DNA of 64,000 nt from Antennarius striatus (lineage: Eukaryota > Chordata > Actinopteri > Lophiiformes > Antennariidae), in contig NC_090795.1 in the NCBI RefSeq assembly GCF_040054535.1, forward strand, positions 2,579,501-2,643,500. The letters are read 5' to 3'. Below, piece by piece: positions 2,288-52,187 of this stretch (positions within the stretch are counted from its first letter, which is position 1; each line of letters starts with the position of its first letter). Under the pieces are notes generated by a model. That model was not told the origin of the DNA. It did not search any database and saw only the letters and a list, made by a program, of their open reading frames with translations. Both the position numbers and the translations under genes were made by a program.

Positions 2288-4483
2288 TCTCTGTCTCAGC
2301 GCTACCAGAGGCAGCTCTCCTCAGCAGTCAGAGGTGAGAACACAAACACCTCCATGAACCTTTATGGAATCCATTCAGAAATGTTGTCTAACTCCCAGTT
2401 TCTTCAGATGAAGTGTCTCGGGTGCTGCCCTCGCTGGTGATGGTGGACAGGGCTTCGCCTCGACCCAAAGTCGCCGCCCACGTCACCGGAAGCTTCGTGC
2501 CCAAACTGGAGCAAAACGGAGGTGAGTCCAGCAAAACTGCTGCCGGAGTTGCGAAAGGCCTTTACGACTTTATCGACTGAACATCAGCAGTCGATAAAGT
2601 TTTTGAAAAGTTAAAACCGATTATCTGCTGCGTGCGGACTTGTCCTGACGCTACGATGCAGCTGCGACGGATATCACTTATTAAAACAATGTGTTTGGGA
2701 AAGAAAAGCATATTTTCTTCTCCTTTTTAAAATTTTTTATGACGAAAGAAAAGCAGAAACGACTAAAAAACGCCGAGTGAGCAGTATCTTGAGATTACAA
2801 TTCTGGTTTTTTGGAGTCAGAATTTTGGATCTCGTGTTGCAGCGTTTTTTGTTATTTTTTTAAATTCGTAACAATAGCTTATAAAATTCAGACTTGATTT
2901 ATTTTAATCTCAGGAGTATTTCTTTTATATCCTTTCACGACTTTCGCAATAAATATTAAAATGTTTTCCTGATATCCATCTGCGGTTTTTATGTTCTCGA
3001 AGGAAATTTATGGGATAAATCCTGATCTGGGTGACGAGTTAGTTGTTCGGCAGAAAATCTCCAAATCATAAATTGTTGAAACGACACAATAAGAACATCT
3101 GATGCTGAAAAAGATTTGAAGGAACTGTTCGATGTTTTTTTTTACTTCCTCAGCTCCGGCCTCCTCCGGGCGTCGAGTTCAGGGTCAGAAGATCTCCTGG
3201 TGGGAGGGCCAGAAGGGTCTGGCGTTCCTCCAGGACGTCCGGCTGGTGGACGGGGAGCTGGTGGTGCCTCAGCCGGGCCTCTACTACGTCTACGCCCAGA
3301 CCTACTTCAGACACACCCACGCGCTGGAGGAGGAGGGCGAAGACGGCGAGGACTCGGGAGACCGGGGGAGACCCCTCCTGCAGTACGTCTACAAAAAGGT
3401 GAGGGTTCCTGTCTCGGTGCCCCCCCCCCCCTCACAGACGTGGAAAAAGGTGGGAATCCCAGACAGGAAATGCAAGCCTGATGTCATCAGCATATGTTCG
3501 CGTTCCTCGCAGCGTTCAGCCGCAGACGGGTGATGCACAACAGATGAGAAGCCGGACGGTGGTCTCCGCAAAAACAATGGGGGGGGGGGGTGTTCCATCC
3601 CAGCGTGGCACAAATCGATTTTAATGTTGAATTTATTCAGTTCAGCGTCGAGTCAAAGCGTTTGCACTCAGATATTAACGTGATAAACGTCTTTCAAGCA
3701 CCTCACCGACATTCTCACCCAATTTATGGTGAATCAAATCTTTTTTTTTTCTTTTTTTTTTCTTTTTAACTCAAAATAATCCCAGACTCAATCCCAGATG
3801 TTTCTATTTGGTGCTTTCAATGACCCTTTGCATTTGGAGAACAGATGTGTGCCTTCCAGGAATCGCCTTATGTCCAAACATGGAACAAATGTTGTGTTTT
3901 TATAAAACGGATTCAAATTCTACGGTACGGAGCAAAACATCCGACCGGCCTGTGTTGATTGATGATTTTTTCACAGTAAAGATGTTGAGAATTATGACAG
4001 AAAAATAAAATGAACTGTTGCGAAAGACTGTTTTGCAGATTGTTCTGTTTGTTTCCGCTCTTGGGTCGTAAATAATACTGATAAATACTGCAGCAGGACG
4101 TTCACAAAAGATTTGGAGGGAAGTTTTTGATGATCAAACATCTGCCTGGTTTTGAATTTAAACGATACCAGGTAGAGATGTGGTAGAGCTGTAAATTCCC
4201 ACGTTTTTATCCGACCCCCAACGCACCACTGACCTCCTGTGACTCACCTTCTCCTCGTCTTCCTCCCCTACAGGTGAGCTCCTACCCGGTGCCCATCCTC
4301 CTGATGAAGACGAGCCGGACCTCCTGCTGGTCCCGGGGTTCTCAGTTCTCTCTGCACTCCGCCCACCAGGGGGGGCTGTTCCCTCTGAGCAGCGGCGACC
4401 GCCTGTTTGTGACGGTGACCAACGCCACCGCCGTGGACATGGACGAGAAGAGCAGCTTCTTCGGCGCCTTTCTCATCAGCTAG
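2288..4483 (+). CDS. tnfsf10: TNF superfamily ligand, TRAIL (TNFSF10)-like, 5'-partial
   Basis: A death-ligand cytokine that would act as a trimer on the cell surface or in shed form. Four coding exons are visible: 2288-2333, 2408-2521, 3154-3398 and 4274-4483, all with AG/GT borders and matching phases. The joined product reads ...RPKVAAHVTGSF..., ISWWEGQKGLAFL, GLYYVYAQTYFR, YPVPILLMKTSRTSCWS and ends SSFFGAFLIS. These match the TNF homology domain of TRAIL, including the Cys in the SCWS motif, which in TRAIL binds the trimer's central zinc. The cytoplasmic and transmembrane exon lies outside the window, so this is the 3' portion. An acidic stretch (EEEGEDGEDSGD) occupies a loop between beta strands. 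Assignment to TRAIL rather than another TNF ligand rests on the C-terminal motif run; paralogue identity is uncertain. Confidence 0.85.
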
Positions 4484-7509: not shown

Positions 7510-10500
7510 TCAGCAGTCGAAGCGCATCTCCAGCGAATCGTCGAAGCCCCGGGAGTCCTGTCCCGACCCGGACAGGAAGGTGGCGGTGACGGGGGCGCCG
7601 GTCGCCGTGGTGACGTTGAGGAGGGTGCTGGCGGGGGAGCTGGTGGCCGGGCTGCGGAGCGCCGCGGCGGTGATACTGGTGAGGTTGATGCCCAGCGTGA
7701 GGCGGGTCTGCTCCAGAGCTTTCTCCGGCACGGCGAACGCCTCCAGCTTCTTCTCGCCGTTGGCCATGTAGGAGTTCTGGCAGCCGCGGCAGATGCAGTC
7801 CAGACACGCCTGAGGACAACAACCATCAGTAAACAACAACAACAACAACATGCAATACGTGAAGTTAAAGCCTCATTCCCACCTTGCGGTTGGAGTAGCA
7901 GGGGCAGCGCTGCCCCCTACAGGTCAACACGGAGGGGTTCTGAGTGGCTCGGCCGCATTTGCAGCCCTTCTTCTCCACCGGTTTCTTATATAGGGGCTTC
8001 GAGGGGCTGGGGGGGTGTGTCAGGGGGTGCGCGTGGGGATGCGGGGGTATTCTGTCGCGTGGTTGTGCTCTGGGTTTGGGGGGCCCCTGCCTAGCCTTGG
8101 TGTAAGCCTTCTTGGGGCCCCCGTGGTGCTCCACAGTCTTTTTCAGCGCCTTGTTGGAGACCACCAGGGTCTTGCCCACCTTGGGGGGGCCGCCGTTGGG
8201 CACGGGGGCCAGGTGCGGGTGGGACATCGCCGCGGGGAACTTGGGCTCTTGTTTGGTGGTAGGGTTGGGGTGATGGGGGGAGCTGTTGGCACCGAGGAGA
8301 GGCCCCCGTAGGAGACTGGAGATGGGGAGGGGCTGCACCTTCTCGCTGTCGCTTTCCGAGCGGGAGCGCTTGCGGTTGCACCGGGGGAGGACGTGGGGGA
8401 TCGCCGCGGAGGGCTGAGGGGGAGGCTGCAACGAGGGCTGCGGGTGAGGCGGGAGGGTCCGAGGGCCGTTCTCGGGGGGTAACGAGGGGATGAGGCGGGA
8501 GGAGTTGTGCCCGGACGGGCAGTGGGGCCCGTTGAGGCTCTGGTGATGGACCGGGTGGGGGCAGTCCGGCTGGGGGAGCGGTTCCGGGTCGGGGTCTGTC
8601 TCCAGAGTCCTGAGCACCTCCTCCACGCTCAACAACAAGGCCCCCCCTCCGTGTTTCAGGTCATCCCCGAAAGGACTGATGTCACACAGCGCTGCCTCCC
8701 CCGTCCCCGTGACGCTCACACACACCGGGATCTCCTCCGAAAAGCTCTCCTGCTTCGCGACCCCTCCGCCCGTTTCTACGGTGACGGGCTGCAGAGCGTC
8801 CAAACTCACCAGGCCGTTACAGTCGTGCAAACCGTTCACGCTCACGGGACTCGGCTCCTCCACCTTCAGCTCCTTCGTCAGAGGAGCTTCATCCGGTTGG
8901 ATCAGGTTGGAGGTGGAGGCCACCTGCGAGAGGCAGAAGGAATCAGAAACGTTTTCCACCTCCGGCTCGCTCTCAGCCACCGTCAGGCCTTCGTTGAGCA
9001 CGGCCTGGAGGTCCGGCGAGTCGCTGGCGGCGCTGGCTATGTGCGAGGCGAGCGGCGACTGAGTGATGTAGAGGCAAAGCTTCCTGTAACAGTGGACGAG
9101 CAAGGAGAGCTGCTTGTTTTCCTCGAAGCGGGAATAGTCCTTACACCAACTGCAGGACGGCTTCAGCTGCATCCTCTGGCCTCTGCAGCCTCGGCAGACG
9201 TAATGCTGGCATGACGAGTTGGTGGGAGCGATGGGGTCTTGCAGCAGGTTACCTGAAGGTGTGAGAAGACAAATATCCCACATGAGAACCCAAACATGCC
9301 ATACATTCAGACGTGCAAACATTTTTCAGTAAATGAAGTTGGAATATTTGCATTTCAAAAAGACTGCTTTCCACTTTGCGTCATTCCAACAGCTTCCTCC
9401 ACTGATTATCTATTTGTAAACCTGAGTGGTGGATGGCAACTCGCCAGCGCGGCTGACAACTGCTCTTTGAGTGGGGCTTCCTTAGCAACACTGGTTACTA
9501 GGGAGTGCAGCTGCAGATTGGAAAAAAAAAAGAACCAAGGTGCATTCATGAGGATCAACCAACCTTAGAAACACTGCGCCTACTGAAAACAAGGAAGTCT
9601 ATATTTAACTTGATGTATGGTCTGCTTTCATATGGATCTATTATTCATAGGGTGGACGTGGAGGTGCAATAGATATGAGTGGAACGAAGCAGCTGCTCTT
9701 TTCAATACTCGAGCAATCACAAGACAAATACCTCCTTTATCAACAGTCGGTTTTCCTTTCACAAGGACGCGCATTTCCAGTTAAGATGGGGTTGATGCAT
9801 CATGCATGAGCAGTTAGAAGAGTGCATTAAATAATCCTGCAAAATTAATCAAAGTTGAGGTTTAATTACTTGAGAAAACTAGCCGGAGCAGCCTGCGTGA
9901 TTTACAACCTCTTTTATACGGAAGGCATAAAAAGCATTCCCTCCTTTTATCGATTTCTTTTATTCCGTCCATATATTTTCTTGTGTTGTGTATCATGGGA
10001 TGGGGAGGGGGGGGGGGTTAGGAGCACAATATCCAGCACGAGGAGGGGCTGTTATTCAACACGACAAAACAGAGAAACGCCCCGTTGCAACCAAACGCCA
10101 CACAGAGGGGGGTGTGTCACGATGGGTGTAGCTGTACGCAGTGAGGCGTTCAAACCCCTCGGATTTTTTAAAGGTTGTTATTTGTAGGCGATTTGAATTT
10201 CATTCAATCAGAATTTTAAAGTTGCAGCTAATAGACGCGGATGGTAATTTAAATTCTTTATATAAAACACTGGTCTAGCTATAAAGATGTAAGGCTAAAC
10301 ATGATTAAATCTCCAATTCATACTTAAAAAGTTGGATTCTTCAGGTTAAACTTACTCCTTACATTGATGAAATGCTTTTTTAATAATACGTCACATTTCT
10401 TATAATAAATGCACAGTATGCAGGTTCTTTGTCATAAAAAAAAATCCAGCAATAAAATTATTTTTCACAGCAATTTCCGTGTAAAAGCTTCCTCTAAATA

Positions 10501-17823: not shown

Positions 17824-18690
17824 TAAAAAAGGGGACAGTCAGCAGGATTACAAACCGGATCGTGGAGCCATCGTGTCGCTGAGACCAACCGTCCAGTTCC
17901 TCTTCTACAAAATCAAAAATGAGGCAACTTGAAGGATATTTAATAAGTAATTGTTGTTAGAAAGAGATTTAGATGATTTCCCAGAAAAAAAATCATTAAA
18001 AAGTTGTTCTTACTTTCACATTAAGATCTTAAAAGTGCAACAAAGTCCTGATTCTGCTCTCAATCTGACGCGGTTCCGTCTCCCTTCATATAATCTTTTC
18101 ATTTTAGATAAAGCAGCACGTTTCCTCTGCCATCAGTGTTCCTGATGACCGCTGGGTTTCTGTACATGTGGTAAATATCTTTGCTTGCTGTTCTGCTCAA
18201 AGACAAAGATGAAAACTTTTTTTTTTAAAGGCAGAATTCATCCTCAAAAGTTCAATATGCAACCCCGCTGGCGTGTCATTCGCTGGGATTGGGTGGCGAC
18301 TCGGAGGAACATGTTGGGACACGACCGTGACATCATGACCTCGTCCTGCCCCGCTCGACAAGATCATCGTGACATGAATTTCACAAAACTTCCTCATCGT
18401 CATTTTCAGAAAATTCACACATGGAAAGAAAACATGCAGATTTACAATAAATTACCAGTTTAGTTGTATTTCAATTAAAGTTTTTGTGAATTAATAAACG
18501 CACCGATAGATTTGACATGGAGGAAGCAGCATTTCTGACACCTGACTTTGGAATGAAGAGATGAAAGTGCTTCCTGTTTAAAAGCTGCCAGTATCTTCAC
18601 CCACTAAAAAAAAATAAAATCAATGGTTCATTCATTGAGAAGAAGTGTGAGGAGAGAAAAACAACCCCCAAAAAAATGGGAAGATGCCTG

Positions 18691-18725
18691 ACCGGAGGGA
18701 CCGCTTCTTCTTTTTCAGGCCTGAA
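18691..18725 (+). promoter_or_regulatory. Copy 1 of the repeated chemokine upstream module
   Basis: This reads accggagggaccgcttc then ttctttttcaggcctgaa. It closely matches the blocks upstream of the two intact chemokine genes at 19787-19830 and 22809-22852. Here no intact first exon follows, so it appears left behind by a decayed copy. Confidence 0.6.
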
Positions 18726-18950
18726 CGACCAGATGCCTCCAGCATGCTGCAGCATGACGGGTCTGACATGAGATTATTTTGCATGTAAATTCAAGGGAGT
18801 TTATTTTTTTGCTTCCAACTTGCAAAATTTTGTCTTTCAATTCCTAATCTGCACCCTAATTCTTTGTCTCTTATTTCTTTTCACACAGGAAAAGCTACCC
18901 CCAAAGATCCTTCATCCTCCTCTCCTCCTTCTTTTACCTCTTCATCTTAG
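18691..18950 (+). pseudogene. Relic of a CC/XC-type chemokine gene
   Basis: The upstream module at 18691-18725 is followed within about 160 bp by a sequence resembling the last exon of the neighbouring chemokines. After an acceptor ending at 18888, one frame reads KATPKDPSSSSPPSFTSSS and stops at 18948-18950. This resembles the Ser/Thr/Pro tails encoded at 20475 and 23547. Compared with those exons, there is one extra A after the acceptor, so the tail is out of phase with a normal exon 3. No exons 1-3 lie between the two pieces. I read this as a third tandem copy that lost its middle by deletion. The tail match is low complexity, so the upstream module carries most of the weight. Confidence 0.5.
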
Positions 18951-18972
18951 CCGCCTGCTGCCTGCATGCTAC

Positions 18973-19786: not shown

Positions 19787-19830
19787 GACGAACCGGAGGG
19801 ACCGCTTCTGCTTTTCAGGCCTTAAGTATC
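19787..19830 (+). promoter_or_regulatory. Copy 2 of the chemokine upstream module
   Basis: Reads gacgaaccggagggaccgct followed by tctgcttttcaggccttaag. It starts 140 bp before the start codon at 19927. It matches the block at 22809-22852 at nearly every base, at almost the same distance from the start (146 bp there). Such conservation in otherwise diverged flanks suggests a core promoter or immune-response element. Confidence 0.6.
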
Positions 19831-19926: not shown

Positions 19927-20574
19927 ATGAACGCTGGAACCCTGATGAAGAGCGCGCTGGTCGCCGTCGTCCTCCTGGCTCTGATTGGCTCTGGATCAGC
20001 AGGTGAGACCCGGGTTTGGACCAATCGGCCTTAAATCCTGACAGGAAGTGGTTTTTTGTTGGTGTTGAAGAACTTTCTCTCCTCTCCTCAGTCAACAAGC
20101 TGTCCTCCTGCTGCAAGACGGTGAGCAGCCAGCCAATCAGCGGGCCCATCACCGGCTACATGGTGCAGAAGGCCAGCCCCCCATGTGTGCGAGCCATCAT
20201 GTGAGTCCCATCTTCATTCCTTTGAATCGATTCTGATCAGAAGAAATCCTTTCCATTCATTTCCCGGCTCAGAGAGAAACAGTTCATTCATTTCTCTGTC
20301 CTTCCTGCAGCTTCCAAACAGAACAGGGTCTTTTCTGCAGTCAGGTCAACGCTCCCTGGGTTCGCCGCAAGATCATCGCCTTCGAGTGAGTTTGTTTCCA
20401 CCCGTTGTTTTGCTCGCACTCGTTTTCTTTTCTCCATTGTTAACATTTTTCTCGTTTTTCTCTTTTTCTCACAGGAAAGCCAAAGCTCTGGCCACGCCTT
20501 CGTCCACCGCCTCCCTCCTCTCCATCATCACATCCACCGCCTCACCTCCTTCAGCCTCCTCTCCCTCCCTCTGA
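19927..20574 (+). CDS. CC chemokine, four-cysteine type with Ser/Thr/Pro tail
   Basis: A secreted chemoattractant. Four exons (19927-20002, 20092-20200, 20311-20385, 20475-20574) join in frame to 119 aa. The signal peptide is MNAGTLMKSALVAVVLLALI, with cleavage likely near GSGSA. The mature part begins VNKLSSCCKTVSS and has the canonical set Cys32-Cys33, Cys57, Cys71, with PWVRRKIIAFEKAK as the C-terminal helix. A short tail rich in Ser, Thr and Pro follows, encoded by its own exon. The gene is a tandem duplicate of the one at 22955: signal peptide, exon phases, upstream module and 3'UTR all match. The 3'UTR has AU-rich motifs (near 20761-20779), expected to give a short-lived mRNA, and AATAAA at 20818-20823. 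It resembles fish-specific CCL families; I cannot name the member. Confidence 0.88.
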
Positions 20575-21697
20575 TCGCCCTCTCCTCCCCTCTCCTCCTT
20601 CCTTCTCACTCCCTCCTTTAACTTAAGATGACTATTAATTTCTGTTAATTCATTTTGAACGCAAATATTTATGAGTTTAATTTAACTGACCAGTGCTGGG
20701 AGAAGATTTAAATTTTTATCATGCATCTTAACTTGAAATTGTCCTGAGAAAGTATTTTGAGGTATTTATATATTTATTAAATTCATTTTTGAAGCTTGTG
20801 AAAACTTGTTGCTCATGAATAAACGTTGCATCAAAAGACGTTCCGAGTGTTTATCTTCATCTGTTGTGACAGTTTCATTTCTTGCAAAAGCAGGAAGCTC
20901 TAAAGTTTCTGGTAGTTTCATCCGAACATGAATCAAACATGAAAAACGTGATTCATTCTTATTTACTTCCTCTAATTGAGTTCATTCAACAACCACAATC
21001 ATTACTCAATAACGGAAAACTGAACTCCCGTGTGGACAGGAAGCTTTGAAATATGCCAGTTCCAGTCAATTTCCGTGAACAATCTCTACTTGATTGCTGT
21101 AAAGGAAAGAAGAGAGAATCCTCCTGCGTTGTCGATTTGTGCATCCGTGTGCATATGTTAGTCAGACAAACGTCATGCAGACGATACACACTTCAGAAGA
21201 AGAAAGGACTAATTCCAATTCCAATCCGCCCCTCAGCCCTACCCTTCCGTTTTGCATGTAGGATATCGTTTCTGTCCTGCTTTGCAAACAGAGGCAGCAA
21301 ATATTAAAGACGACGAGCTTTCTGGTAGAGGAGGTGTTTAAATGTTCTTTACCTTTACATATCAGCATCATGGCTGTAATCAAAGGGCCTGATGTAACTA
21401 ATAAATGTAACTAAATGTAACTCAATATAATTTAAAATAAATATAACTACCCCTTAATGTTGAATTACCCTGAATTTATTACTTATTCAAGTTACAAACA
21501 TTACAGTTACACAGAAAACACATGTTTGTTTGTTTCTCTGTTCTAACATTAATCCTTTTAATTTATCAGGTTATTAAACCCACAGAACTCCATCAATCAA
21601 GGATCAAACTATCAATCAATAAAGAAAAATAACATCAAACACAAATCAAGACCTTAAAACGTTTTTGTCCATGTTAAAATGGACTTACTGTAAGTAC

Positions 21698-21717
21698 TGC
21701 ATTGTGGGAAATGTAGT
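21698..21717 (-). promoter_or_regulatory. Candidate ZNF143/THAP11 (SBS-type) site
   Basis: On the minus strand this reads ACTACATTTCCCACAATGCA. It fits the composite ACTACAnnTCCCAnnATGC motif bound by ZNF143 and THAP11 at many vertebrate promoters. It lies just beyond the body of the tRNA-like repeat. Confidence 0.5.
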
Positions 21718-21750
21718 TTACATGGGGAGGTAGAGTGGCAGGCAGACCGT

Positions 21751-21969
21751 TTGTGGAGCGCCTCTAATGAGCGACTTGTGAAGGGGGGGGGGGCGCGCCT
21801 TGCTCAAGGGTTTCTCGGCAGTAATCTGGAGGGTGGGCTGACACCTCCCATTGTTAGCTCACACTACAGGTGTTTTTTTTTTTTGGGGGGGGGGGGCGTG
21901 AGCGGGAATCGAACCGCCGATCTCCGGAGCATTGGACGACCCGTTCTACCGCTGAGCCACTGCCCTCCC
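21751..21969 (-). mobile_element. tRNA-derived SINE-like element
   Basis: Read on the minus strand from 21969, the head carries a tRNA-like A box (GTGGCTCAGCGGTAGAA) and B box (GGTTCGATTCC) at tRNA spacing. A body follows that includes CCCTTGAGCAAGGCGCG. This resembles a dispersed fish element. The T stem has mismatches and poly-T/poly-G runs interrupt the body, so it is not a functional tRNA gene. Boundaries are approximate. Confidence 0.6.
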
Positions 21970-22808
21970 CAAAAAGAAAAGGAAAGGAAAAGGAAAAATA
22001 AATGTGTAATAGGATTGTTTAAATGCTGTTTAGGACAAAAAACTATAAATATCCTGTGAACGAGATCAGATTTATCGACTTTTGTTCCTTATTTGGTCAT
22101 CGACTCACCTGATTTAACTCATCTTTGTACCACCAGCCTGAAAAAAGTCTCAAAAGCCTTCCAGAATTTTGAGACTTCTACAACATAAATTTGTTATTTG
22201 TTTCCTGACGTAGACAATCAGACACATGCCTCTGCATTTTACATATGATAAAATTCCAGGTTTAGCAAACATTATACTAATTTTTTACAAATTTATGTGA
22301 AGAAGTTTTTTTGGACAAAGTCGTCAGACGGTTCCATTGAAACCTTATTTTCCAAAAAATCTTATTATTTTTTTTCTGGTAATTCTTTAATAGTTCAGGC
22401 TTAAGAGGGTTAAAGGACATCACATCCTCTCATTTCCAGATGTAATCTATTACTTCACCCTCCACCAGCCCTCCCACTGTGTGTGTGACTAAACGTGTGT
22501 GTTTAGTCATTCTGTGTGACAGCGACAGGCGACCGATTGATTCCAACCATCACCTTTAATAAAACCTGAACTTCTTCAGAACTTTAATAAAGCTGTATTT
22601 AAAATAATCTCCACCAGTTTTCTGCTTATTTGACCCTTTAATCCAAAGTGACCCCCTGACTGTGGATTCCCTCAAACCAGACGTACATTTTCCAAATGAA
22701 ACGTCGTGATGAAAGCGTTTCCTGTCCGTGACTTCATGGAAATCCCTTGTGATCTCAGGGTTCATTCATTCTGATGCAGACGAGGTGGATGAAGAAAAAC
22801 CGTGGGTC

Positions 22809-22852
22809 ATGACTAACCGGAGGTGCCGCTTCTGCTTTTACGGCCTCAAGTA
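22809..22852 (+). promoter_or_regulatory. Copy 3 of the chemokine upstream module
   Basis: Reads atgactaaccggaggtgccg followed by cttctgcttttacggcctca. It starts 146 bp before the start codon of the XC-like gene at 22955. It differs from copy 2 at only a few positions while the bases around it have diverged. Confidence 0.6.
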
Positions 22853-22954
22853 CGGATCCTCAAGCCGGCCGTCTGCACACCGAGATCTCTGAAGAGGAAG
22901 CGACAGGAAGCACCAGCAGCGATCCCTTCTTTCATTCATCCTTTTTCTTCTAAG

Positions 22955-23760
22955 ATGGAACGTGGAACCCTGATGAAGAGCGCGCTGGTCGCCGTCGTCC
23001 TCTTGGCGCTGGTTCGCTCTGGATCAGCGGGTAAGGATATTTGGATGCGGATAAATGAAGTGGTTTGAAATATTTTTCCATTTATTTTAAAAGCTTTTTG
23101 TCCGTTTCTTGACTTCCAGTCGATAAGCTGACCTCCTACTGCAGCGTGACCAGCAGACAGGAGATCACCGACGCCATCCTGGGATATAGGGTCCAGAGAG
23201 TTCACCCCCCAGCTGTCATGTAAGTACAGCACGACTACACGGATTTAGATCTAGTTTCACCAGCTCCATCCTACATCTGATGGTGTAAATGCTAAAAAAA
23301 CTACTCAAAAGAAGAATTCTTTTCATTTCCACATGATGTGTCTGAATTACGATGGTTTTTAATCTCCCGTCACGTTTGTTTTTCCTTCAGCTTTCAAACA
23401 GCAAAAGGTTTTTTCTGCAGCTACCCCGGCGCTCGCTGGGTTCGCCGCAAGATCGAGGCGTTTCGGTGAGTTTGTTAAAATTTTATATGTTAAAAAAAAT
23501 ATTGATTTTATTCAATCTCTAATCTCAAACGATCTTTTCCTCGCAGGAATGCAAAAGCTGTGACCGCTACTGCTTCTGCCCCGCCTTCGTCCACCGTCTC
23601 CCTCCTCGCCATCATCACATCCGCCGCCTCACCTTCACCTTCATCTCTTCCACCCTCCTCATCCTCGATTCCTCCTTCATCCTCCTCCTCCTCTGCTCCC
23701 TTCTACCCTTCCTCGTCCGAGGCGACCACCCACGAGACGCCCTCCTCTTCCAGCCAATGA
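22955..23760 (+). CDS. XC-type (lymphotactin-like) chemokine with long mucin-like tail
   Basis: A secreted chemokine. Four exons (22955-23030, 23120-23219, 23391-23465, 23547-23760) join in frame to 154 aa. The signal peptide MERGTLMKSALVAVVLLALV is nearly that of the CC gene at 19927. The mature start VDKLTSYCSVTS has Tyr32 where the sister has Cys32, and a three-codon deletion (HPPAVIF against PPCVRAIIF) removes Cys57. Only Cys33 and Cys68 remain, equal to Cys2 and Cys4 of a CC chemokine. This is the defining pattern of XCL1 (lymphotactin). Like XCL1 it also has a long Ser/Thr/Pro tail, about 67 residues after the helix RWVRRKIEAFRNAK. Frame and splice sites are intact, so it looks functional. 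XC chemokines are known in fish; whether this is their orthologue or a separate conversion needs a tree. AATAAA lies at 24070-24075. Confidence 0.88.
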
Positions 23761-24824
23761 GAACGGAGAACGAGTGCGTCAAGACGCTAACAATCAGACT
23801 GACGCTTTAGATCGTACTCGAACAAAATGATCGTGTTAAATTGTTAACTCTAGATGAATATTTAGTTTCTTTTAAAACCTTTTCATTGTAAGGATTTATT
23901 AGTTTATTTTAATTGACCAAAGCTGACCGAAGTGTTGTTTACTAAATGTGTTTACTGATGTTTACAAAACTTTATCATGGATTTAATTCAACTTGACTTG
24001 AACTGCTCTAAGAAAGTATTTTAAGATATTTATTGATATTTAAACTTGTAAAAATTTATTAGGGTAATTAATAAATGCTGCATCTGAGAGTCTGCATATG
24101 TGTTTGTTTGTTTGTTTGTTTGTGTTTATCTTCATCTTGTCCGACAAAATCAAGATTCTCAGTTGAGGCGTCCTCTGGTGAAACGTTCACGTGATTCCAT
24201 CCACTAGTTTCTCCTGAATCCTTTAAACCCAGAGTCTGGATGGGCGGAGCTAAAAGGTGGCTGAAGGTCAAGAGGTCATTTAACCCCTACCAGACCAGGA
24301 AGTCCGGCTTCCTTACACACACCTGTTCATTCGAGTGAAGGCTGAGGGTCTTCATCACCATCGTCACATTAATCACCAGCTTCATCGCGTCACTCTGCAT
24401 GTGACTGAGGTCCAATAAACGCTGACATCACTTTGCTGAATCACTGCTGAGTCACTTCTATCACTATCTGAAAACATGTGATTCCCGGGAAATCGGAGGG
24501 AAGTGGTGAGGAGCTGATTTGAAGCTGTTCATCAGGGTAACTCCAGCCATCGTGAAGCTTCAGCTTCATCTGCTGACGGGTTCAGATTCGCCTGATTGAA
24601 ACTTCTCCTCACGCATCGAGTGACAAAAGCATCTAAATATAATTGTACCTTTAAACGTCAGTGAGAAAACCTACGCTCATATCACGAAAGTGATGCATTG
24701 TGGGTGTTGCTCACACCCCAAACCCACCCAACCTCTGTGAAACTAGCAGGAAATATCAGCATCCATTACCTTTAGTAGTTTCAAGCCAACCTCTTAAATG
24801 CTCAGTCCACCAGGGAGTCCAGCG
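23761..24824. other. 3'UTR of the XC-like gene and intergenic sequence
   Basis: The first 300 bp resembles the 3'UTR of the CC sister gene, sharing 'gaaagtatttt', AU-rich motifs and AATAAA. After that no exon or repeat family was recognised, apart from a short (GTTT)n run near 24102-24121. Confidence 0.5.
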
Positions 24825-24911
24825 ATGAAGATGCAAACGAGGGTTCTGTCCATCCTCCTCCTCCTCTTGGCCTGCCGTGCAGCGTCTGCAGGCAACTGTA
24901 ATACAGAATAA
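24825..24911 (+). pseudogene. Orphan chemokine-like signal-peptide exon
   Basis: The frame MKMQTRVLSILLLLLACRAA followed by SAG looks like a chemokine first exon and then runs into a stop at 24909-24911. A GC-type donor is possible after TCTGCA at 24890 (GCA|GGCAACT region), but there is no GT donor at the expected place. No CC/CXC exon was found in the 1.6 kb downstream. The likely explanation is a dead copy of another chemokine gene. A 28-residue secreted peptide is possible but unsupported. Confidence 0.4.
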
Positions 24912-25407: not shown

Positions 25408-26933
25408 AAAGGCTGAGCCTGCGTCATTCCGTTGAACCGTTCAGCACTTTTGGAGTTTAATCATGTTAGCAATGACATACTCACGTAAACCGGAGTAACG
25501 CAAAAGGACATTTTAAAATATTAATAATAAATGACTTCTGACGTCAGACTGCAGCCACTGACGTCAATTCTTACCACAACACTCACAGAATTCCCATAAT
25601 TGACGCTGAACTCCACCGGGTTGAAATGAAAAGAACGTACGGATAGTTAAGCACGACGGGTTCGTCCAGTCACGTGATTGAGTTTGTCCAATCATGCACT
25701 TTGTGGGCGGGATCTCTGGAAATTAACCAATTATATTATAATTATCTACTAGATTTCCGGATTTCAATGTGTTTTTGAAAGTAAAGATTGGAGTTTCTTT
25801 CGGTTTATATTAGATAATCAAACATTTATTTTAAAACCAAAGTTTATTGCCATAAAGTTCAATAGAATAACATTTATCAGCTGGTGGATCAAACTCAACT
25901 CCTTTAAAGGAGATCCAGTAAAACATGAGACTCACTTTCAGGTAAACACAGAGAATATTCTCAGGTCAGGGCAAACATGACCCCTAGGAGAAAAATAATG
26001 TTTTTTTATTTATTATTTATTTTCAGAATTGGGTTTATTTTGTTATTTACCAACAGAACAACACCGGTGACCTCTGACAGGATGGGTCAGGGTGAGCTGT
26101 CAAGATCAGATAAACGCCTCGCATCAGCGAATTAACTGTCAGCCAATGGAAACAAACATAAAAAGATGTGGAAGTTTTCTGAGAAACACAGTTTATTTTC
26201 ATCGAAAAACATTTAAAATATTTACTTTATTCAATCTCAACTAAAACCAAGCTGATGAATATTCTGGTCAAATATTCAAACAGGGAAAGAACAAACTGAT
26301 GAATTAGAGTATAAAGTACTCGACAACTACATGAATTTAAAATTTTAGGATGTGTAGGAGGTTATTGCATTATTATTACAGCATTTATGTTTTATTTATA
26401 CATATTTCCTTCTCTTTTCAATATATTGGACACTATTGCTGACAGAGTACACCCTTAATAAAAAATGTAGTTTATATGCATCTGTGCATAAAAAACAAGC
26501 ATGACTCAAGTTTGATAAAAGATGTAATAGAAAAACAGTTTCACAGGTTTACATCTGAACCCAGTCAACATCAATACAACTGTTAATAAAGACAATAAAA
26601 AAAACACAATCAAGGCAAGAATGGTTTTTGGCTTTCCTTTGGGCATCTCTGCATTAAAGCACAAACATCCATAAACATCCTTTTTAAATTCTGATTTCAG
26701 ATCATAGATTGTCAAATTCTGGATGAAGACCTCAAAGTTTGGGGGGGAAAAAGGCACAAAAGCACCTTTACAAAAAAATTCAAACCTGAATGGGACCCCT
26801 TGTTTTAAGTGAGCTGCAGTAACAGTTTACTTCCTGACCTTTGACCTCAGGTTCAGATGGAGATCCTACAACGAAAGACGGATGAAGGTAGTGAGATGAA
26901 TGACCAGAGGAATAATCCGTGTGTCCTGTAACA

Positions 26934-27546: not shown

Positions 27547-29137
27547 TCAGAGTGTGGTGGTTTCCGTCTGCAGGATGGACTGGGCTCTGGCGTGCCTGGC
27601 AGACGGCGCGCAGGTTTCGGTGCCGTTCCTGCTGACGGACAAGGTGTGCATCCTGTAGTCCCGCCCCCGGAAGCCCCTGAAGGACAGGTGTCTCCACATC
27701 CTCCTCAGCTCGATCTGGACCTTTTCAAACAAAACCGACTTTAAGTTGAAGCAGAGAATCTAGAAAACGTGAGATTGAGCTGCGACTCACCTCGCTGTTG
27801 AGGAAACAATAGAGGACGGCCACGATCAGACCCTATAAAACACACCCACAAACGACACGCAAGTTAAAAAAAAACACTGCAAAGAAAAGTTCCTCCAGAG
27901 GCGGGGAGAGAAACCGGTGACGCGTTCCTGACCTGGAAAGACCCCAGCCCCAGTTCGAAGAAGATCTTGATGTAGTTCAAGGTCTTGTTGGTCGGCTCCA
28001 TCAGGTAGACGAACACCACGTAGTTGATCCCGAACAGAGGGATCAGAAGGAGGGTGGACTTAGCCAGACGCCTGGAGAACACACACACACACACACACAC
28101 AATGCATTTTAAAGCTGTTAAACATTTCATCACTGGGATGTAATCTTTATATAAATCAAAAAAGTGCGAGGTTAAATACTTGTACTGCGATTGCTCGTTT
28201 CCTCCCACGTCGGTGCATCGCACCTTCTGCACCAGGATGCGGATGATGCTGATGAAGAGGATGAAGTTGATCTTAATAGACAAAAAAAAAAAAGAAAAAA
28301 GCAGGAAGTCAGAATTTAGTTTAAAAACAAAAAGAAGTAATGACTCGACTTCACAAAAAAAAAAAAAGACGTTGTAGGACACACTCACGATGACCGACGC
28401 CATGATGGGCCAGTTGATGAGTCTTCTGGGGACGGGGTTCTCGTTCATCTCCCAGCACCTGTAAACACAAACAGGAAATGTTAAGTTCTACCGGATCTCC
28501 TTTTGTCGCTTCGCCCTGCAGCGCCGACGGGTCGCTCACCTGGTGTCCTCCAGCTTCACCCGACAGACGATCCACGCCACCATGAAGACCAGAGGGATTC
28601 CTGAGAGACAGGGGGGGGGGTAACAGAGAGTCTGCTTAGCTTCACCAGGAAACGCAAGTGGCGCTAAAACGCGTTAAAGGAGGAAGAGCTGCTGGAAACC
28701 CCCCCAACCCCCCCACCCCTGGTCGCGTACCCCAGCCGATGAGCAGGTAGACGGGGAAGCGGATGGAGTAGTTGTGGATGACGAGCAGCAGCGTGTGGAG
28801 GTAGAGACCCTCCACCAGCAGCCAGAAGAAGTTGGCCATGATGAAGTAGTTGGAGAACACCAGGCTGGCCTTACAGTCCACCTGGAGGACCACACACACA
28901 CACACACACACACACACATGCAACACACACGTTAGCCCTACAGCTAGGATTGGCATCAAAAAAAGGAGTCCACGGCCGTATTTTGGGGCGCTCACCAGCG
29001 ACGGCTGCGTGCTGCAGTCGACGGTTTCGTCGTCGGAGAAGAGCAGCGCGTCTTTGATGAGAACGGCCACGGCGCGCAGGATGAACGACACAAACAAGTT
29101 GAGATGGATGTAGTTCCTGGTGCAGTAGAGCCTCCTG

Positions 29138-29179
<42 letters not shown>

Positions 29180-29803
29180 AATGTTAAGAAGCGTGTTTAC
29201 AGAGGGTGTCGGTGCGCGGAGCCGCTGGAGGACGTCGGATCTAAACACGGCGATAGCGGCGAGTGAACGGCTGGAGCGCGTCCAGACGGGGATGGAGATC
29301 CCGTCACGGCTCGGCGTGTTGGGAAACGTTTTGAGTTAGAGTGTGTTTAAGTGTGCAGCGTGTGTGTGTTTATGTATTGTATATCCTGAATAATCCTTCA
29401 TGCATCCTGTGTAGAAACCAGCTGGAGTTAAAGGTCAAGACCTTTGCACATGAATGATTTCAGTTTGGTGTTTGAGCTAAAATTAGATTAAACGCCAGAT
29501 TAAATCCATGAGATTAAGAATTTAATGTTCTTTAAATTCCTTCCAGCAGCATCTCTGAGGCTAAACCGGAGCGATTTTTAACGAAGCCTAGAATAAAACA
29601 GCAAATATAAATCAACGGGTCAAGAATGGTGCAAGACGACGATATTCAGACGTGAAAAAACAAACAAAAAGGGCGACGCAAATAAACGTCCGTGTTTGTG
29701 TTTACCTGAAGGAACAGATGATGGCGATGCTGGTGAGCAGAGACACGAGGGACAGGCTGTGGCCCAGAGTGGTCAGGATCTTCACCACCCTGTAGAACAC
29801 CAG

Positions 29804-44300: not shown

Positions 44301-46239
44301 GGTCCAAAATATCTGAGTGTGTTTTGGTGAAATCAAAGTTCAATGAGGTAAAAAAACGGGAACATTCAACCGAATCGGTTTGGAAGTTGTTTTTTAAAAC
44401 ATTCCAGATGATTTCTTGGTAATCCTGACTCCAACTCACCTTTCCGGACTCCATTAAGGGCAGACTGTGAGGAGAACCTCTCTCAACCAACCGAACCCTG
44501 AAACACACACACACACACACACGTGAAAACGTCACCGTCGCGCCATCGACGCGAAAGACGTCAGCTGTCAAGACGGAGCGGTCGGTTACCTGTCGTGTCG
44601 CAGCGCCCTCATGTCCACGTACACGGTAGTGGGGTCCGGCCCCGACGTGCCCTGCAGCCAATCAGAACACAGGAGCGGTGAGCAGAGTGACGTGCAGCCC
44701 GATGCAAAGAGCGTTTGAACTGCGGAGCGTCTGACCTGCAGGCAGATGGCCAGGTTGACCCGGCAGCCGAAGGCCGTGCTGACGGAGCGCGGGTGGAGGC
44801 CCAGGTCCTTGAACAGCTTGGAGAAGGAGTGTGTCAGCGACATCCTGGGCCTCTCCTCCGCCACCACCACGCAAGCACGAACCCGCGACAGATCCAGACC
44901 CCGAGCCTGGAAAGGAAAGGAATTCTGGAATGAAGATTTTTGGGGCTAGAGAGGATTTCTTTAAGTGGATGAAAGCAACGAAACACAAAGGTGTGTGTGG
45001 GGGGGGAAAGAGCCCAGGAACTAGAGAACATTTATACTTTTTCACTCTGTCTTCCACCTTCAGTCTCCATGGAGACTTAAAGAATGATAATCACTAAAAT
45101 TAACTCTGCAGCTTCCGCGGGTGACCAATCAGAGGCGGCGGTGACTCGTCGGCTCAGACTCGGCCTCGGGCGCCGCAGACAGAGACGGAGCGCGAGTTGA
45201 TTATCGCTGAGCCGGAGCGCTGGAGTCACGCCGCTTTGCTAGAACTACTGTTCCTCTGGTTCACATAAGAGTTACAGGAAGCGGGTCGAGTCCGATGCTG
45301 ACCAATCAGGATCGGATTACGAGGAGAAGTGACGGTTTGGCAGTTTCACTGTTATAATTTGCCCTAAAAAGTCAAAAACTTCCTGCGATTGAAAAACAAT
45401 TTAAAAAAACTCGAGTCTCGCTGACCTTGAGCGCCTCGGTCTGCAGGCCGAGCCCTTTGGTGCAGAGCTCCATGACGCTGTAGGAGCAGAAGGTGTCTCG
45501 CACCCTCAGCTGGCTGACGGCCAGCAGCCACAGCGCCGGGTTGGACTCCAGCTCCACCGGGGGGATCAGGATGGACTGGTGGCCCGAGTACACACTGAAA
45601 CACACACACACACACAGTGACGAACCGAGGAGAGACGTTCTCGTAACGAAGGCGATTCGCTGTCGGTTTTATTTATAAGACGTGCAGAAATTTGCTCTCA
45701 CCAAGTTCACGATTTATGAGCTGAAGATTTGAGACTAAACAGACCCGAGATCTGTAAAAACGACTCGCGGCTGTAATTTTTAAACAGAAACGACGACGTT
45801 TGATTCTCCTGGTAATTTTAAGGACGATTTTATGGCATTAAATAAATAAATAAGTGCTGGTGTAAAACGTGAATCAAACCTTTTATATATAAAACAGCTC
45901 CAGAACAACCACCATTACTTCCTGGTGAAAGAATGTGGCTCTCCGGACATGTGAAGACGATTACTGTGAGGAGTCTGACGCTTCTAGTGAGTTTTTAAAG
46001 ACTCTTTCTCCCGTTGCTACGGGAAACGGCGTTACGCGAGCGACGGAAGCGATCCAGGAAGCTGATGGCAGAAGACGGAGACGCCGACCTGCAGAGACAC
46101 CAGAGGACGAAGCCGAGGCCGCAGTACGGATCCAGACAGATGGCCACTTCCCTGGACGGGTACAGCTCACACTGCAGCTTCACCGACCGACAGAAGGCTC
46201 CCACTGCATTATGGGACATCTGGAGAGAGGAGGAAGGAG

Positions 46240-46280
<41 letters not shown>

Positions 46281-46639
46281 TAATTTTTTCTCTTTATTTA
46301 TTTATTTTTGGTAAGAACACCAGAAGTCCTGCGTATCCTGAGAGTTAAAAAACAAATTTCTGTCTTTCCAAAGCGATTCCTGAGGCTTTTTTTTTTTTTT
46401 CTGTTGCAGCTGACAGTCGAATTTCCCTCCGGGATGAAAATAAAGTGATGAATAAAAGAAAGAAAGAAAGAAAGAAAGAGAAAGAGAGAGAGAGTGGGGA
46501 TGGATCAACGCCGCGCTGACCTGAACTCCGGCCAGCATGCCGGTCGTCGACACGCTGAAGTCCAGATAGGCCAGACCGTCAGGGTTGGTGGGCTTATAGA
46601 GAGCTGGAGGCTTCTTCTTTGGCAGGTCGTCTGCAGCGT

Positions 46640-46715
<76 letters not shown>

Positions 46716-47113
46716 GTGATGTGAATCTGCTATTTTATTCCCAGGGTGAGGTTGGGATCCGATCCCGTGTCCTACCGGTGTCGAGGACGGGGGGCCAGTT
46801 CCTGATGTCCACCGTTGCCGTGGCCTCTTTGGAGCGCAGCAGCTTACAGATGACCGCCGTCGTCATGACGCAGGCCGAGTGGCTGACCTGCAGAGAGACA
46901 CGCGGCGTCACGTCCAGTCAGACCTGAGCTCAAAAGTGTGTGTTTTTAGTTCGGGCTAAAGACGTCCCTGCGGTGTGACCCCTGACCTCTACGATCATCT
47001 TGACGGTGGGCAGCGTGGTGGAGATGTTCTGAGGGTGGGGCGGTCGCACCGTGATGGGGACGCAGCCGGCGTAGAGGCTGCCGTAGAACGCCGCGATCAG
47101 GTCGATGCCTGCA

Positions 47114-47188
<75 letters not shown>

Positions 47189-47410
47189 TGAATGATCACC
47201 TTCAAACGAACACCTGAACACCCAACTCTCCCCTCTCTTACCTGGGGGGTACACCAGAGCCACGTGGTCTCCTTCCTGCAGACCTCCTCTCTCCATCAGC
47301 AGCGCCGCCACTCGCTCCGCCCTCTTATGCAGCTGCAGGCAGGTGAGGGAGCTGGACACCGCCCCCTGGAGGACGGGAGGAAGGATGAGAGCGTAATCTA
47401 GTGTAATCTA

Positions 47411-47473
<63 letters not shown>

Positions 47474-49007
47474 ACCCGCGAGCTGAGCAGCGTGTAGAGG
47501 ATGTGGTCGGGCGTGGTCTGAGCTCTCCACTGCAAAACCTCCGACAGGAACAGGAACTAGAAAGCAACGGATTAACCCTTCAGAATCTGAACGTCTGGTC
47601 TCGATCACAGGTGGGGGTTCTACCTGGGTGTGTGCGTGTGTGTGTGGGGGGGTCCTACCTGGTCATTATCGTCCGTCTGTCCTAAATCCCTCCCGCTGGC
47701 CTGGGCGATCCTCTTCCCCGACACCAGGTTCCCCACCATCACGGAGGCGGGGCCGATCTCTGCAGCACAAACACACATTCACATTCACAAACCGGGGGGG
47801 TGGTGGGGGGCAGTCACGGTGACACCAAAATGGGTCGCCCTCCCTCCCCTACCTGGTTGCTTCTGCCGCGGTTTGGGCAGGTTAGTGACGCAGGTGTGGG
47901 GGCACATGAGGACGTTGCACGGGTGCAGCCCCCCTTCCAGATACAGCTGCTTGATCTCTGATAGGTGGATGCCCCCCAGCGGGGTTTTGGGCAGGGTGTT
48001 AGCCGGGACAAGGGCCAAACAGAACACACCCACCCCGTGGATGCTGTCGATGGCCTGTGGCGGAGGGGGGGGGAGGAGGAAAAAGGGGAGGAGTCAACAC
48101 TTTACGATTGCGCGATGGGGAGGGTCAAACGCTGGCGCGTGATTGGTCACCTGCAGCACGCGGCTCATCCACTGGAAGCTGTCTTCCTCCGTGGAGTCGG
48201 GTCTCTGCTCCGCCACCACCACGATCCGCTCGTCTCGCAGGACCGTCACGGAAAACACCGCTATCCTGCACGGGGGGGGGGGGGGGCGGGGCATCAGTGC
48301 TAAGAACACGCCCTCAAATTAGAATAAATCTGAGATCAGTCAAGTTTGATCGTTAGGATTAATGCTGGTTAGCGTGCGGCTAGCCTTTCAAAATAAAATG
48401 TGCTTCAAGGAAAATAAGAACAAACATAAATACATGAAAAAAATGAAGTCAAGTTAAACTTTAAACACTTTAAACTTTCCTCCTTCAGGTTCCGGTCCTA
48501 CATTTGATGTTTTTTTTGGGTTTCTGCAGCTCAAGCCTTAAATAGCTCGGAGGAAACATCGTTCGCTGTCAGCTGGAAGATGAATTTCCTGCCCGCCGGC
48601 CGTGGACACAATTAAACTTCACTCTATTACAGTTCCTGGATTCGTCCATGATTGCTCTACTTTATGAGATCTATTATATGTGGGGGGGGGGGTTGTGCTC
48701 ATTTATCAGTCTGACAGAAATCCCCCCCCCCCCCCCAAACCGTGACTTCACTCACCGGCCTCTGTACACGAATTTCATTGGCTCCACCGCCAGCGCCGTG
48801 GCGACGATGTCGTCGGCGTTGTGCCGCCGCCCGCTCACCATGATCAGCCCGTCCATCTTCCCCGTGATGAAGACGAGGCCGCCGGGGCCGACGAAGCCCA
48901 GCAATCCGGTCCGCACGAAGGCGTACTCGCTGATCAGCCCCCCGCCGGAGCTCACCGGGAAAACCTGCGGGGGAGGGAAAAAACACAACCACAGGCTCGC
49001 AAATAGG

Positions 49008-49042
<35 letters not shown>

Positions 49043-50077
49043 CTTCCTGTTTGAAGGACGCGCACCTCAAACGTGTTCTTGGTCATGCCGGTGAGGCCGT
49101 AGTAGGAGGTGCCGGTGGCGATGGAGCACACGCACAGCTCCCCAATCTCATCCGTCTGACACAGCTGAGGGACCCCTTCTGGTTTCACCACGCACGCCAG
49201 GCCTGGAGGGGGCGGAGCCAACAGGTAAAGGATGATGGGTCACACCTGAGTCCACAGGCACGCTAAAGTAGGCGGTTCTGACCTAGATGTGAGGTTTATG
49301 TCGACCCAAAAACCAAGTTAGTCGTCTAAAGAAGGAACCATAAGAACAGCATCAGCTGAATATTTCCAACGATGCTGCTGGTTGGAAAAATTTATTAAAA
49401 AATAGAGACTCTTTGTCCCAGGAAACATTGGAGAAGAAAGAGTTTAATGGTTTCCTCCTTTAAGTCACGGTCTCAAAGGGAACCGAATCTTTAAAGGATT
49501 GTTCTTTAGATGAAAATAATAAAAATAATCTCAAACTTAAAACAGGGTCAGTTCAGGGGTCAACATTCTGGCCCCGAACAGACGATGAATTCCTCCCTGA
49601 GAGTTCTTTTAACGACGAGTTTTACCTTCGTTCGACCGTCTGTCCGACTTTTTCCTGAGAGACAAAACTCAGGGGAAAACGACAGATTGAAGGCGTATTG
49701 AAAACGCCGCGGGCGCCCGGCCCTGCCTACAGCTGGATGTAAAAAAAAAGAGGGGCGGCGCATTTACAAAGCCTTTAAAGCAGTTTGAGGATTTAATGGA
49801 TTAAATCGGTTTTTTGACATTCGGTGCGAAAATGGCACTCGAGGTCGATGCTTTAACGTTACACACACACACACACACTCACACACACACACTCGTTTAG
49901 AATCTAAACGATCTCCTGAGAACACACGCACTTACCTCCTGGAGCGACGGTCCCTACGTCCTGGACGGTGAGTACCGACAGGCGCTCCTCCGTGTCGACC
50001 CGGACGACCCCGTAGGTCAGACCCTGCATGGACAGGACGCCCCGCCCGGGAGGCTGGCTGCTGTCCTCCACGGGCCT

Positions 50078-50137
<60 letters not shown>

Positions 50138-51352
50138 AAAACAGTTCAATTAAACGTCTCAGTCGCTGTCCATTACCAGGAATTAACAGAGAGTCTGCAG
50201 CCAATCACAATCAAGCATTCACCCACATGATTACTTACTTCCTGTCGGCGCCACAGAATAGGGCTTCTCTGGTTTGTGTGAATTTGCATTTCTGTTGATC
50301 GGTGTGTTTGCATAGGTGTGTGTGTGTGTGTGTGTCTTTGCATGGCGGTGCTTCTTCGCCGAGGCGGCGTGGGGGCGGGCCTACCTCCTGATGGCGACCG
50401 TCAGCGCCTCGGGGGAGCTGGCGCAGGGACAGATGACGTCGGCCCGCAGCCCTTTGGTCTGAAAGACGTTCAGGAAGGCGTCGCAGGAGGAGATGGACCC
50501 TGAAGGAACCAAGAACCCCCCCCCCCCCAACGGTCAGGAGAAAAACAGAACCTTTGAGCCCGTTTTACCTTGTTTCTACAGGAAGTTTTCAGATTTAATC
50601 CACCTTAAATCCCTGTTGGTGCTCATTTGAACCAAAACACCCCAGATATTCTCTGTGGTCTGGAGGGGAAATGAAGTATTTTCAAAATAAAAGCTTGACA
50701 TTTAACTGAAGACAAAGTCAATGCTGCTGTTTAGAACAGAATCAGTCGTTTGGGAACGCTCCTAGTTCACACCTTTGGTCCTGTTCATGATAACACATCG
50801 CCATGACGACAGGTAAACTATTTTAGAATAACATATTAGAGACGGATCTAACCGTCAGTGTTGTTACTTTATTTGTTTCTATAATGTTATAGACCGTATT
50901 TATAAATTTCTTTGTAATTTCTAATAACACCAACACGGAACATGTAGCCAGTGCGCTAACAGATGCTAAGCTACCCTAAAAGCCACTTCCTGTCCCACTT
51001 CCTGTTCCACTTCCTCCTGCTGAAACCCATTCATTCTGCTAAACAAACGCTTCCAGACATCCTGCTCTACTCCTCGCGAGGTGACCCAGATTCACTGCGT
51101 CCCGGGAGAGTTTTCCCGCCTCCCCGGCATCACTCGGATTAAAGTGCACCTCTCTGAACTCCACTTAGCGGTGTGTGTGTGTGGGGGGGGGGGTGGGGGG
51201 GGTAGGGTGGCCTTACAAGGGTTGGATCCGTCGGCCACCAGCAGCATGCGCAGCGAGCTCAGGTTGATGTCCTTCTGCTCTTTGTGGGCCACCAGAGCCC
51301 AGTGCATGTCCCTGGACTTCACACACGCTACCTTGGCTGCAGGAGAAAGAAC

Positions 51353-51420
<68 letters not shown>

Positions 51421-51488
51421 GGAAGAGAAAGACAGACGGATCATGTTAGCGTGTCATCCACCTGACTCAACCCGTTTGAGTGAGGTGG

Positions 51489-51543
<55 letters not shown>

Positions 51544-51653
51544 CCGACCTTTGTACTGGCACACTTTCTGGATCCAGGACAGCGGGTTGACCTTCATCAG
51601 CGAGTAGGGCACGCTGATCACGTGCATCATGTTCATCACACTCTGCACAACAC

Positions 51654-51718
<65 letters not shown>

Positions 51719-52149
51719 TTTACTCCTCAGGTGTTTCATTAGTCGATTTTTTTTTAAAAGTGCATTTAACTTTTCAAATTGAACCAACTTGTGTTTTATG
51801 ATGATTATCATCTGGATCTGTTCATGAAATATTCAAACAGAGGCTGCGGGTCTGAAATAGCAGCTGGGGGGCTTCCAGGAGGAATTTAAACGTCTTTCTT
51901 TAACGATAGCGATCTAATCGTCGTCTGTGCAGACCGACTAATCTCCTCTTTATTTCTCTTACACCCCTGATAAGAGAGGTGATGAAGCAAACAGGAAATG
52001 AAGGTGGTGACCTCTGACCTTTAAAAGAGGGGGGGGCGGGGCTTACCGTCAGGATGCCGTGCCACAGACCGACGTCCTTCTTAAAGTCCAGGACGTTGAC
52101 GATGGTCTCCGCTGCAGGAAGAGGGAAGGGGTTAAACGATGATCTGGAG

Positions 52150-52187
<38 letters not shown>

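Follow-up and report, generated by a model that had tools for sequence, protein, structure and literature searches.

Structure of the Tandem Chemokine Genes

The 64,000-nucleotide (nt) stretch of contig NC_090795.1 of Antennarius striatus analysed here (the window) contains two chemokine genes in tandem. The first (gene 1) is a CC chemokine gene, and the second (gene 2) is a duplicate of it which retains only the second and fourth of the conserved cysteines, the XC pattern of lymphotactin (XCL1). Their features are listed in Table 1. Each gene has four coding exons with end phases 1, 2, and 2, and the introns are GT-AG. Against 200 mononucleotide shuffles, the two genes are similar in all four exons (z = 18.3, 8.2, 12.5, and 11.4), in the 160-base 5′ flank (z = 11.9), and in the 3′ untranslated region (UTR; z = 9.0), whereas the introns reach only z = 3.7, 2.4, and 3.4. 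The exon phases, the upstream module, and the 3′ UTR are thus common to both genes, as a preliminary description of this DNA had stated.

Table 1. Features of the chemokine locus and its flanking genes (CDS, coding sequence; GPCR, G protein-coupled receptor; VIP, vasoactive intestinal peptide).
Feature	Position in window	Strand	Basis or remark
Gene 1, CC chemokine, CDS	19927-20574	+	Splice sites, phases, open frame; Pfam IL8
Gene 1 exons	19927-20002, 20092-20200, 20311-20385, 20475-20574	+	Product of 119 amino acids (aa)
Gene 2, XC-pattern duplicate, CDS	22955-23760	+	Splice sites, phases, open frame; sister of gene 1 at 99/99
Gene 2 exons	22955-23030, 23120-23219, 23391-23465, 23547-23760	+	Product of 154 aa
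Gene 2 exon 2 with Cys1-to-Tyr change and Cys3-removing 9-nt deletion	23120-23219	+	Codon comparison; 100 vs. 109 bases
Upstream module of gene 1	19792-19815	+	Pattern match, 0 in 100 shuffles
Upstream module of gene 2	22816-22839	+	Pattern match, 0 in 100 shuffles
3′ UTR of gene 1 (as delimited here)	20575-20845	+	5 ATTTA, AATAAA at 20818
3′ UTR of gene 2 (as delimited here)	23761-24090	+	6 ATTTA, AATAAA at 24070
Relic of a third copy	18670-18956	+	Module 18670-18754; frameshifted exon-4-like piece with acceptor 18863-18956 (exon from 18889)
MSL2 exons, left neighbour	7513-9325	-	Pfam MSL2 RING, E = 4e-30, and MSL2-CXC; PDB MSL2 homolog, E = 4.4e-33
VIP-receptor-like class B GPCR exons, right neighbour	28645-29196	-	Pfam 7tm_2, E = 2.1e-28; best PDB match VIPR2, E = 2.4e-31

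Gene 1 encodes adjacent Cys1 and Cys2 together with Cys3 and Cys4 in an IL8-type domain (PF00048, E = 1.4e-9, 38.4 bits; cut-off, 21.3 bits), as expected for a CC chemokine. The core of the gene 2 protein is basic (pI 10.1), and a Ser/Thr/Pro tail is present in both proteins. The 24-nt upstream module, whose pattern was derived from these same copies, has three matches in the window (18691, 19792, and 22816) and none in 100 shuffles. Inducible cytokine mRNAs usually have AU-rich ends. Both 3′ UTRs are richer in ATTTA than mononucleotide shuffles (P = 0.007 for gene 1 and P = 0.008 for gene 2). A scan for promoters and terminators of the bacterial type gave nothing above its shuffles.

Loss of Two Cysteines and Shortening of a Loop in Gene 2

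The cysteine motifs are CC, PPC, and FC in gene 1 and YC, PPA, and FC in gene 2. The Cys1 codon TGC of gene 1 corresponds to TAC (Tyr) in gene 2, which is one transition. Codons 57-59 of gene 1 (Cys-Val-Arg), which include Cys3, are absent from gene 2 by a clean in-frame 9-nt deletion. Cys2 and Cys4 are retained as Cys33 and Cys68 of the precursor. Gene 2 accordingly shows the XC pattern. It has neither the four conserved cysteines of a CC chemokine nor, as Cys3 is deleted, the Cys3 and Cys4 that a CX chemokine keeps. Both changes and the lymphotactin arrangement had been described correctly before.

A misassembly or a faulty exon model is a most improbable source of this pattern. Although the sequence is known from one assembly, the deletion preserves the reading frame, and a transition separate from it changed Cys1; both lie in a coherent, diverged coding sequence, and the exon ends agree with those of gene 1.

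The disulfide bonds of chemokines connect Cys1 with Cys3 and Cys2 with Cys4 (PMC2416438). Gene 2 has therefore lost one whole bond, and the other can be kept.

The deletion also shortens the β1-β2 loop. The loop was measured from the β1 aromatic to the start of β2, and the most N-terminal aromatic was used where several qualified. The loop has 8 residues in gene 2 and in human XCL1 and 10-12 in 14 other sequences: gene 1, the XCL1 ancestor 7jh1, 11 human CC chemokines, and CX3CL1. The loop of the XCL1 ancestor has 11 residues; human XCL1 is thus also 3 residues shorter than its ancestor.

Phylogenetic Relationship to XCL1

The phylogenetic tree was built from the mature domains of 18 sequences (73 of 82 columns kept, no sequence dropped), among which the window genes were the only fish sequences. 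Gene 1 and gene 2 were sisters at 99/99, apart from human XCL1, and theirs was the sole starred branch of the 15; the bootstrap was not fully settled. When the similar exon 1 was left out, exons 2 and 3 alone gave the same grouping, again at 99/99. The two genes do not fall into distant families, and within this tree the closest relative of gene 2 is the CC gene 1 rather than an XCL gene. Because the pair groups apart from human XCL1 with this support, the XC pattern probably arose within the pair, in agreement with the earlier proposal of a CC-to-XC change independent of mammalian XCL1.

Alternatively, gene 2 may be a true orthologue of tetrapod XCL1 which inherited the XC pattern, with gene conversion by its CC neighbour mimicking the sisterhood. 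The topology tests leave room for it. Forcing gene 2 together with XCL1 costs 16.4 log-likelihood units, yet the p-value of the approximately unbiased test (p-AU) is 0.105, and this topology is not formally rejected; this also weighs against an origin of the pattern within the pair. For a topology that unites both genes with XCL1 and the XCL1 ancestor, the cost is 6.65 (p-AU = 0.24). The equal loop length of gene 2 and XCL1 fits orthology, as do the gene neighbourhood and the low synonymous divergence of exon 1, both described below. On the other side, the sisterhood is unchanged in exons 2 and 3, and the coding sequence of gene 2 is spread over four exons instead of the three of the zebrafish XC gene (PMC2416438).

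Similarity searches in part favour the same alternative. When gene 2 was searched against PDB with phmmer, XCL1 was the top match of 12 sequences, at a non-significant E of 0.13. With gene 1, CCL19 was the top match (E = 0.0011), the XCL1 ancestor was third, and XCL1 was tenth of 17. A profile of the two genes placed the XCL1 ancestor at the top (E = 5e-5), followed by fractalkine entries, and XCL1 sixth of 49. As a control, gene 1 was edited to the XC pattern; CCL19 was still the top match, and XCL1 moved up to fourth of 9. The ranking of XCL1 with gene 2 is thus partly due to the XC pattern itself, because the edited gene 1 raises XCL1 too. Overall, orthology with XCL1 appears quite unlikely.

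Two apparent signs of orthology were set aside. One is the top XCL1 match of gene 2, in view of its non-significance and of the control. The other is the long Ser/Thr/Pro tail, which had been taken as an XCL1-like trait in the preliminary description; a tail of this kind is present in the CC sibling too. Searches with both genes against viral contigs, and with gene 1 against genome contigs, found no relatives.

Age and Selection

The synonymous divergence (dS) between the mature cores of gene 1 and gene 2 is ~0.55. This indicates that the duplication is old. The genes had been described as recent tandem copies; the tandem homology is borne out by the similarity above shuffles, but the recent date is not. 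Exon 1, which encodes the signal peptide, has a dS of 0.15, below that of the core, and synonymous changes are fewer in exon 1 than in the core (Fisher p = 0.047, from rounded counts). The low value may reflect gene conversion or a constrained 5′ end; the former is what the orthology alternative calls for.

Identical residues occupy 33 of the 58 aligned mature positions. In neutral simulations at the observed dS (t = 0.554), that many are reached with P = 0.0003, and at t = 0.45 they are reached in 1.2% of runs (these percentages are among simulated runs whose frame stays open). The 154 codons of gene 2 contain no stop or frameshift. At t = 0.25, 15% of neutral simulations with substitutions only end without a stop in 119 codons. 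Judged by these features, gene 2 looks maintained as a gene, but purifying selection on it is only weakly supported by the dN/dS ratio given below.

Functional State of Gene 2

It is likely, though well short of certain, that gene 2, as the tandem duplicate of a CC gene, gained the XC pattern independently and encodes a secreted chemokine with a single disulfide. This reading is based on the intact four-exon frame with consensus splice sites, the conserved 5′ module, and the AU-rich 3′ end with AATAAA. It is also based on the 99/99 sisterhood with a CC gene, the identity above neutral expectation at t = 0.554, the XCL1-like loop, and the basic core. The duplicate would have acquired the lymphotactin-type cysteine pattern on its own. 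Gene 2 would be expressed as an inducible cytokine gene with an AU-rich mRNA; its product would be secreted, fold with one Cys2-Cys4 disulfide, and carry a mucin-like tail. The product, probably a working secreted chemokine, would attract leukocytes by signalling via a chemokine receptor, and the first candidates are fish XCR1-type receptors.

The loop evidence carries a caveat. The contrast depends on the aromatic chosen: the alternative aromatic gives 8 residues for CCL5 and CCL22 and 9 for CCL3, CCL4, and CCL17. The distance from Cys2 to β2 shows a weaker contrast than the loop, being 24 residues in gene 2, 25 in XCL1, and 26-31 in the other 14 sequences. Several observations weigh against this interpretation and point toward a relaxed, decaying duplicate. 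In that reading, gene 2 moved closer to being a pseudogene when Cys1 and Cys3 were lost, and its XC pattern would be incidental. Gene 2 scores below the cut-off of PF00048 (E = 0.0051, 17.4 bits). The dN/dS ratio (nonsynonymous to synonymous divergence) of the mature core is 0.61, with a bootstrap interval of 0.27-1.26 which includes 1; 89.9% of 2000 replicates are under 1. At shorter distances, neutrality accounts for the observed identity, which is reached in 17% of runs at t = 0.35 and in 71% at t = 0.25. Retention of 15 of the 19 hydrophobic positions is non-significant, with P = 0.09 at t = 0.554 and higher values for shorter distances. The loss of a cysteine pair is by itself mild evidence, because two losses out of four hit a bonded pair by chance 1 time in 3. 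Finally, the decayed remains of a third copy adjoin the pair; copies come and go at this locus, and decay therefore stays a live alternative.

Decay is a doubtful but credible alternative. The open frame, the core identity above neutral expectation at the observed dS, the intact splice sites, and the retained polyadenylation signal and AU-rich elements argue against it. If gene 2 is a decaying copy, the locus represents ordinary tandem-duplicate loss.

If gene 2 is instead the chemokine proposed above, it is a concrete candidate for the missing ligand of fish XCR1. The CC gene and the adjoining XC-pattern duplicate constitute a natural matched pair for asking whether loss of the Cys1-Cys3 bond and a shorter loop alter fold or receptor use. 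A stronger proposal is unlikely: that fold-switching XC chemokines arose a second time, independently, in gene 2, and that its product binds fish XCR1 as a ligand. If it were true, CC chemokines could become metamorphic repeatedly through the same disulfide loss and loop contraction, and the unconverted gene 1 beside gene 2 would serve as control. The preliminary description had attributed the fold switching of XCL1 to the loss of the disulfide. This is too simple: according to a 2025 review, the second fold of XCL1 arose after disulfide loss and further mutations, and the review presents the fold switching as having originated once (PMC12288660).

Relic of a Third Copy and Other Candidate Pieces

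The relic of the third copy, to which the module match at 18691 belongs, is absent from the preliminary description. Its local alignments score 68 for the module (null maximum, 33) and 46 for the exon-4-like piece (null maximum, 32), with 60 shuffles each. The exon-4-like piece is frameshifted relative to gene 1, and the module is ~135 bases from it, compared with ~660 bases from the module to exon 4 in gene 1. Exons 1 and 3 are not recognisable in the relic. Between the module and the exon-4-like piece, exon 2 of gene 2 has a weak match at 18726-18774 (34 vs. a null maximum of 29). By its sequence, the third chemokine copy is decayed and partial.

A profile of both proteins was searched over six-frame open reading frames (ORFs) of at least 15 aa in the window. 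Eight ORFs were significant, all overlapping gene 1 or gene 2, and the piece at 18.8-18.9 kb was below threshold (E = 0.53). Intergenic DNA was aligned in 36 comparisons (three stretches by 12 gene parts, 60 shuffles each), and eight were flagged. Five concern the relic region at 18.6-18.96 kb, which was matched by the modules and exon 4s of both genes and by exon 2 of gene 2. The other three are matches to gene 1 exon 2 at 14304 (30 vs. 27), to the gene 1 module at 26741 (35 vs. 29), and to gene 2 exon 4 at 24851 (37 vs. 31).

Separately, a signal-peptide-like first exon, MKMQTRVLSILLLLLACRAASA..., is observed at 24825-24897 on the plus strand, and an in-phase splice is possible to 25077 onward, where the reading has a short cationic end, ...SILRLLGKIIRNISKKKKLNI. 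The two pieces together have no Pfam match; they may encode a small secreted peptide or read open by chance alone.

Gene Neighbourhood

The chemokine pair is flanked by MSL2 on the left and by a VIP-receptor-like gene on the right. In human, PPP2R3A ends at chr3:136147891 and MSL2 starts at 136148922, ~1 kb apart (PMC7187337). In Xenopus, xcl1, xcl2, ccl34a/b, and ccl20a/b form one cluster, ppp2r3a flanks ccl20a, and ccl34 is in a clade with xcl (PMC8811506). Since MSL2 adjoins the pair, human PPP2R3A is adjacent to MSL2, and the Xenopus cluster lies beside ppp2r3a, the pair may sit in the ancestral XCL/CCL34/CCL20 neighbourhood. This gene order lends indirect support to the earlier idea that this is the fish XCL locus, and it is the neighbourhood evidence for orthology referred to above. 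PPP2R3A was not seen in a six-frame Pfam search of 9.3-19 kb, between MSL2 and the pair, the only interval in which it was looked for; DUF806, below cut-off, was the only match there. The plus strand of 24.1-31 kb gave no Pfam match, and Rfam and tRNA scans of the window found none.

The class B GPCR exons (28645-29196, minus strand) are nearest to VIPR2 and VIPR1, and the adjoining ORF at 28354-28635 has no Pfam match. Farther away, exons with a tumor necrosis factor (TNF) domain, nearest to TRAIL/TNFSF10, are located at 3120-4480 (plus strand). AMP-binding exons are located at 45375-54069 (minus strand); their Pfam matches are below cut-off, and their resemblance to DIP2 was judged by eye.

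Comparison with Known XC and CX Chemokines

Nomiyama et al. (2012) described XCL1 as missing in fish although XCR1 is kept, with 2 to 6 XCR1 genes in the four teleosts tabulated, listed the fish XCR1 ligand as unknown, and suggested CC groups as its ligands (PMC3568907). A 2015 review states that a C chemokine had not been identified in any fish besides zebrafish (PMC4690017). No second fish XC gene was noticed among literature titles and abstract openings, and one may still be in print.

Like mammalian XCL1, gene 2 has only Cys2 and Cys4, an 8-residue β1-β2 loop, a basic core, and a C-terminal tail. Unlike mammalian XCL1, it groups with a CC sibling, shares its tail with that sibling, and has four coding exons.

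A CC cluster that contains a gene with the XC pattern is already known from zebrafish. The gene is XCL-chr2a, the one XC-pattern gene reported there; it lies in the CC mini-cluster of chromosome 2 and has little homology to mammalian XC chemokines (PMC2416438). It is now named xcl32a.1, as matched by chromosome and length (PMC7720500). Compared by description only, XCL-chr2a resembles gene 2 as a fish XC-pattern gene but differs in its number of coding exons (three rather than four) and in its length (126 aa rather than 154) (PMC2416438). CCL-chr2d and CCL-chr2e, of 138 and 111 aa, are in the same mini-cluster; by description only, they are like the window genes in having four coding exons and a C-terminal part predicted to be O-glycosylated, and unlike gene 2 in their CC pattern (PMC2416438).

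The zebrafish CX chemokines (CXL) offer a parallel of another kind, as they likewise arose from fish CC genes by tandem duplication and then lost a cysteine (PMC2416438). The outcome differs, however: CX chemokines lack one N-terminal cysteine, retain Cys3 and Cys4, and possess additional cysteines, whereas gene 2 lacks Cys3.

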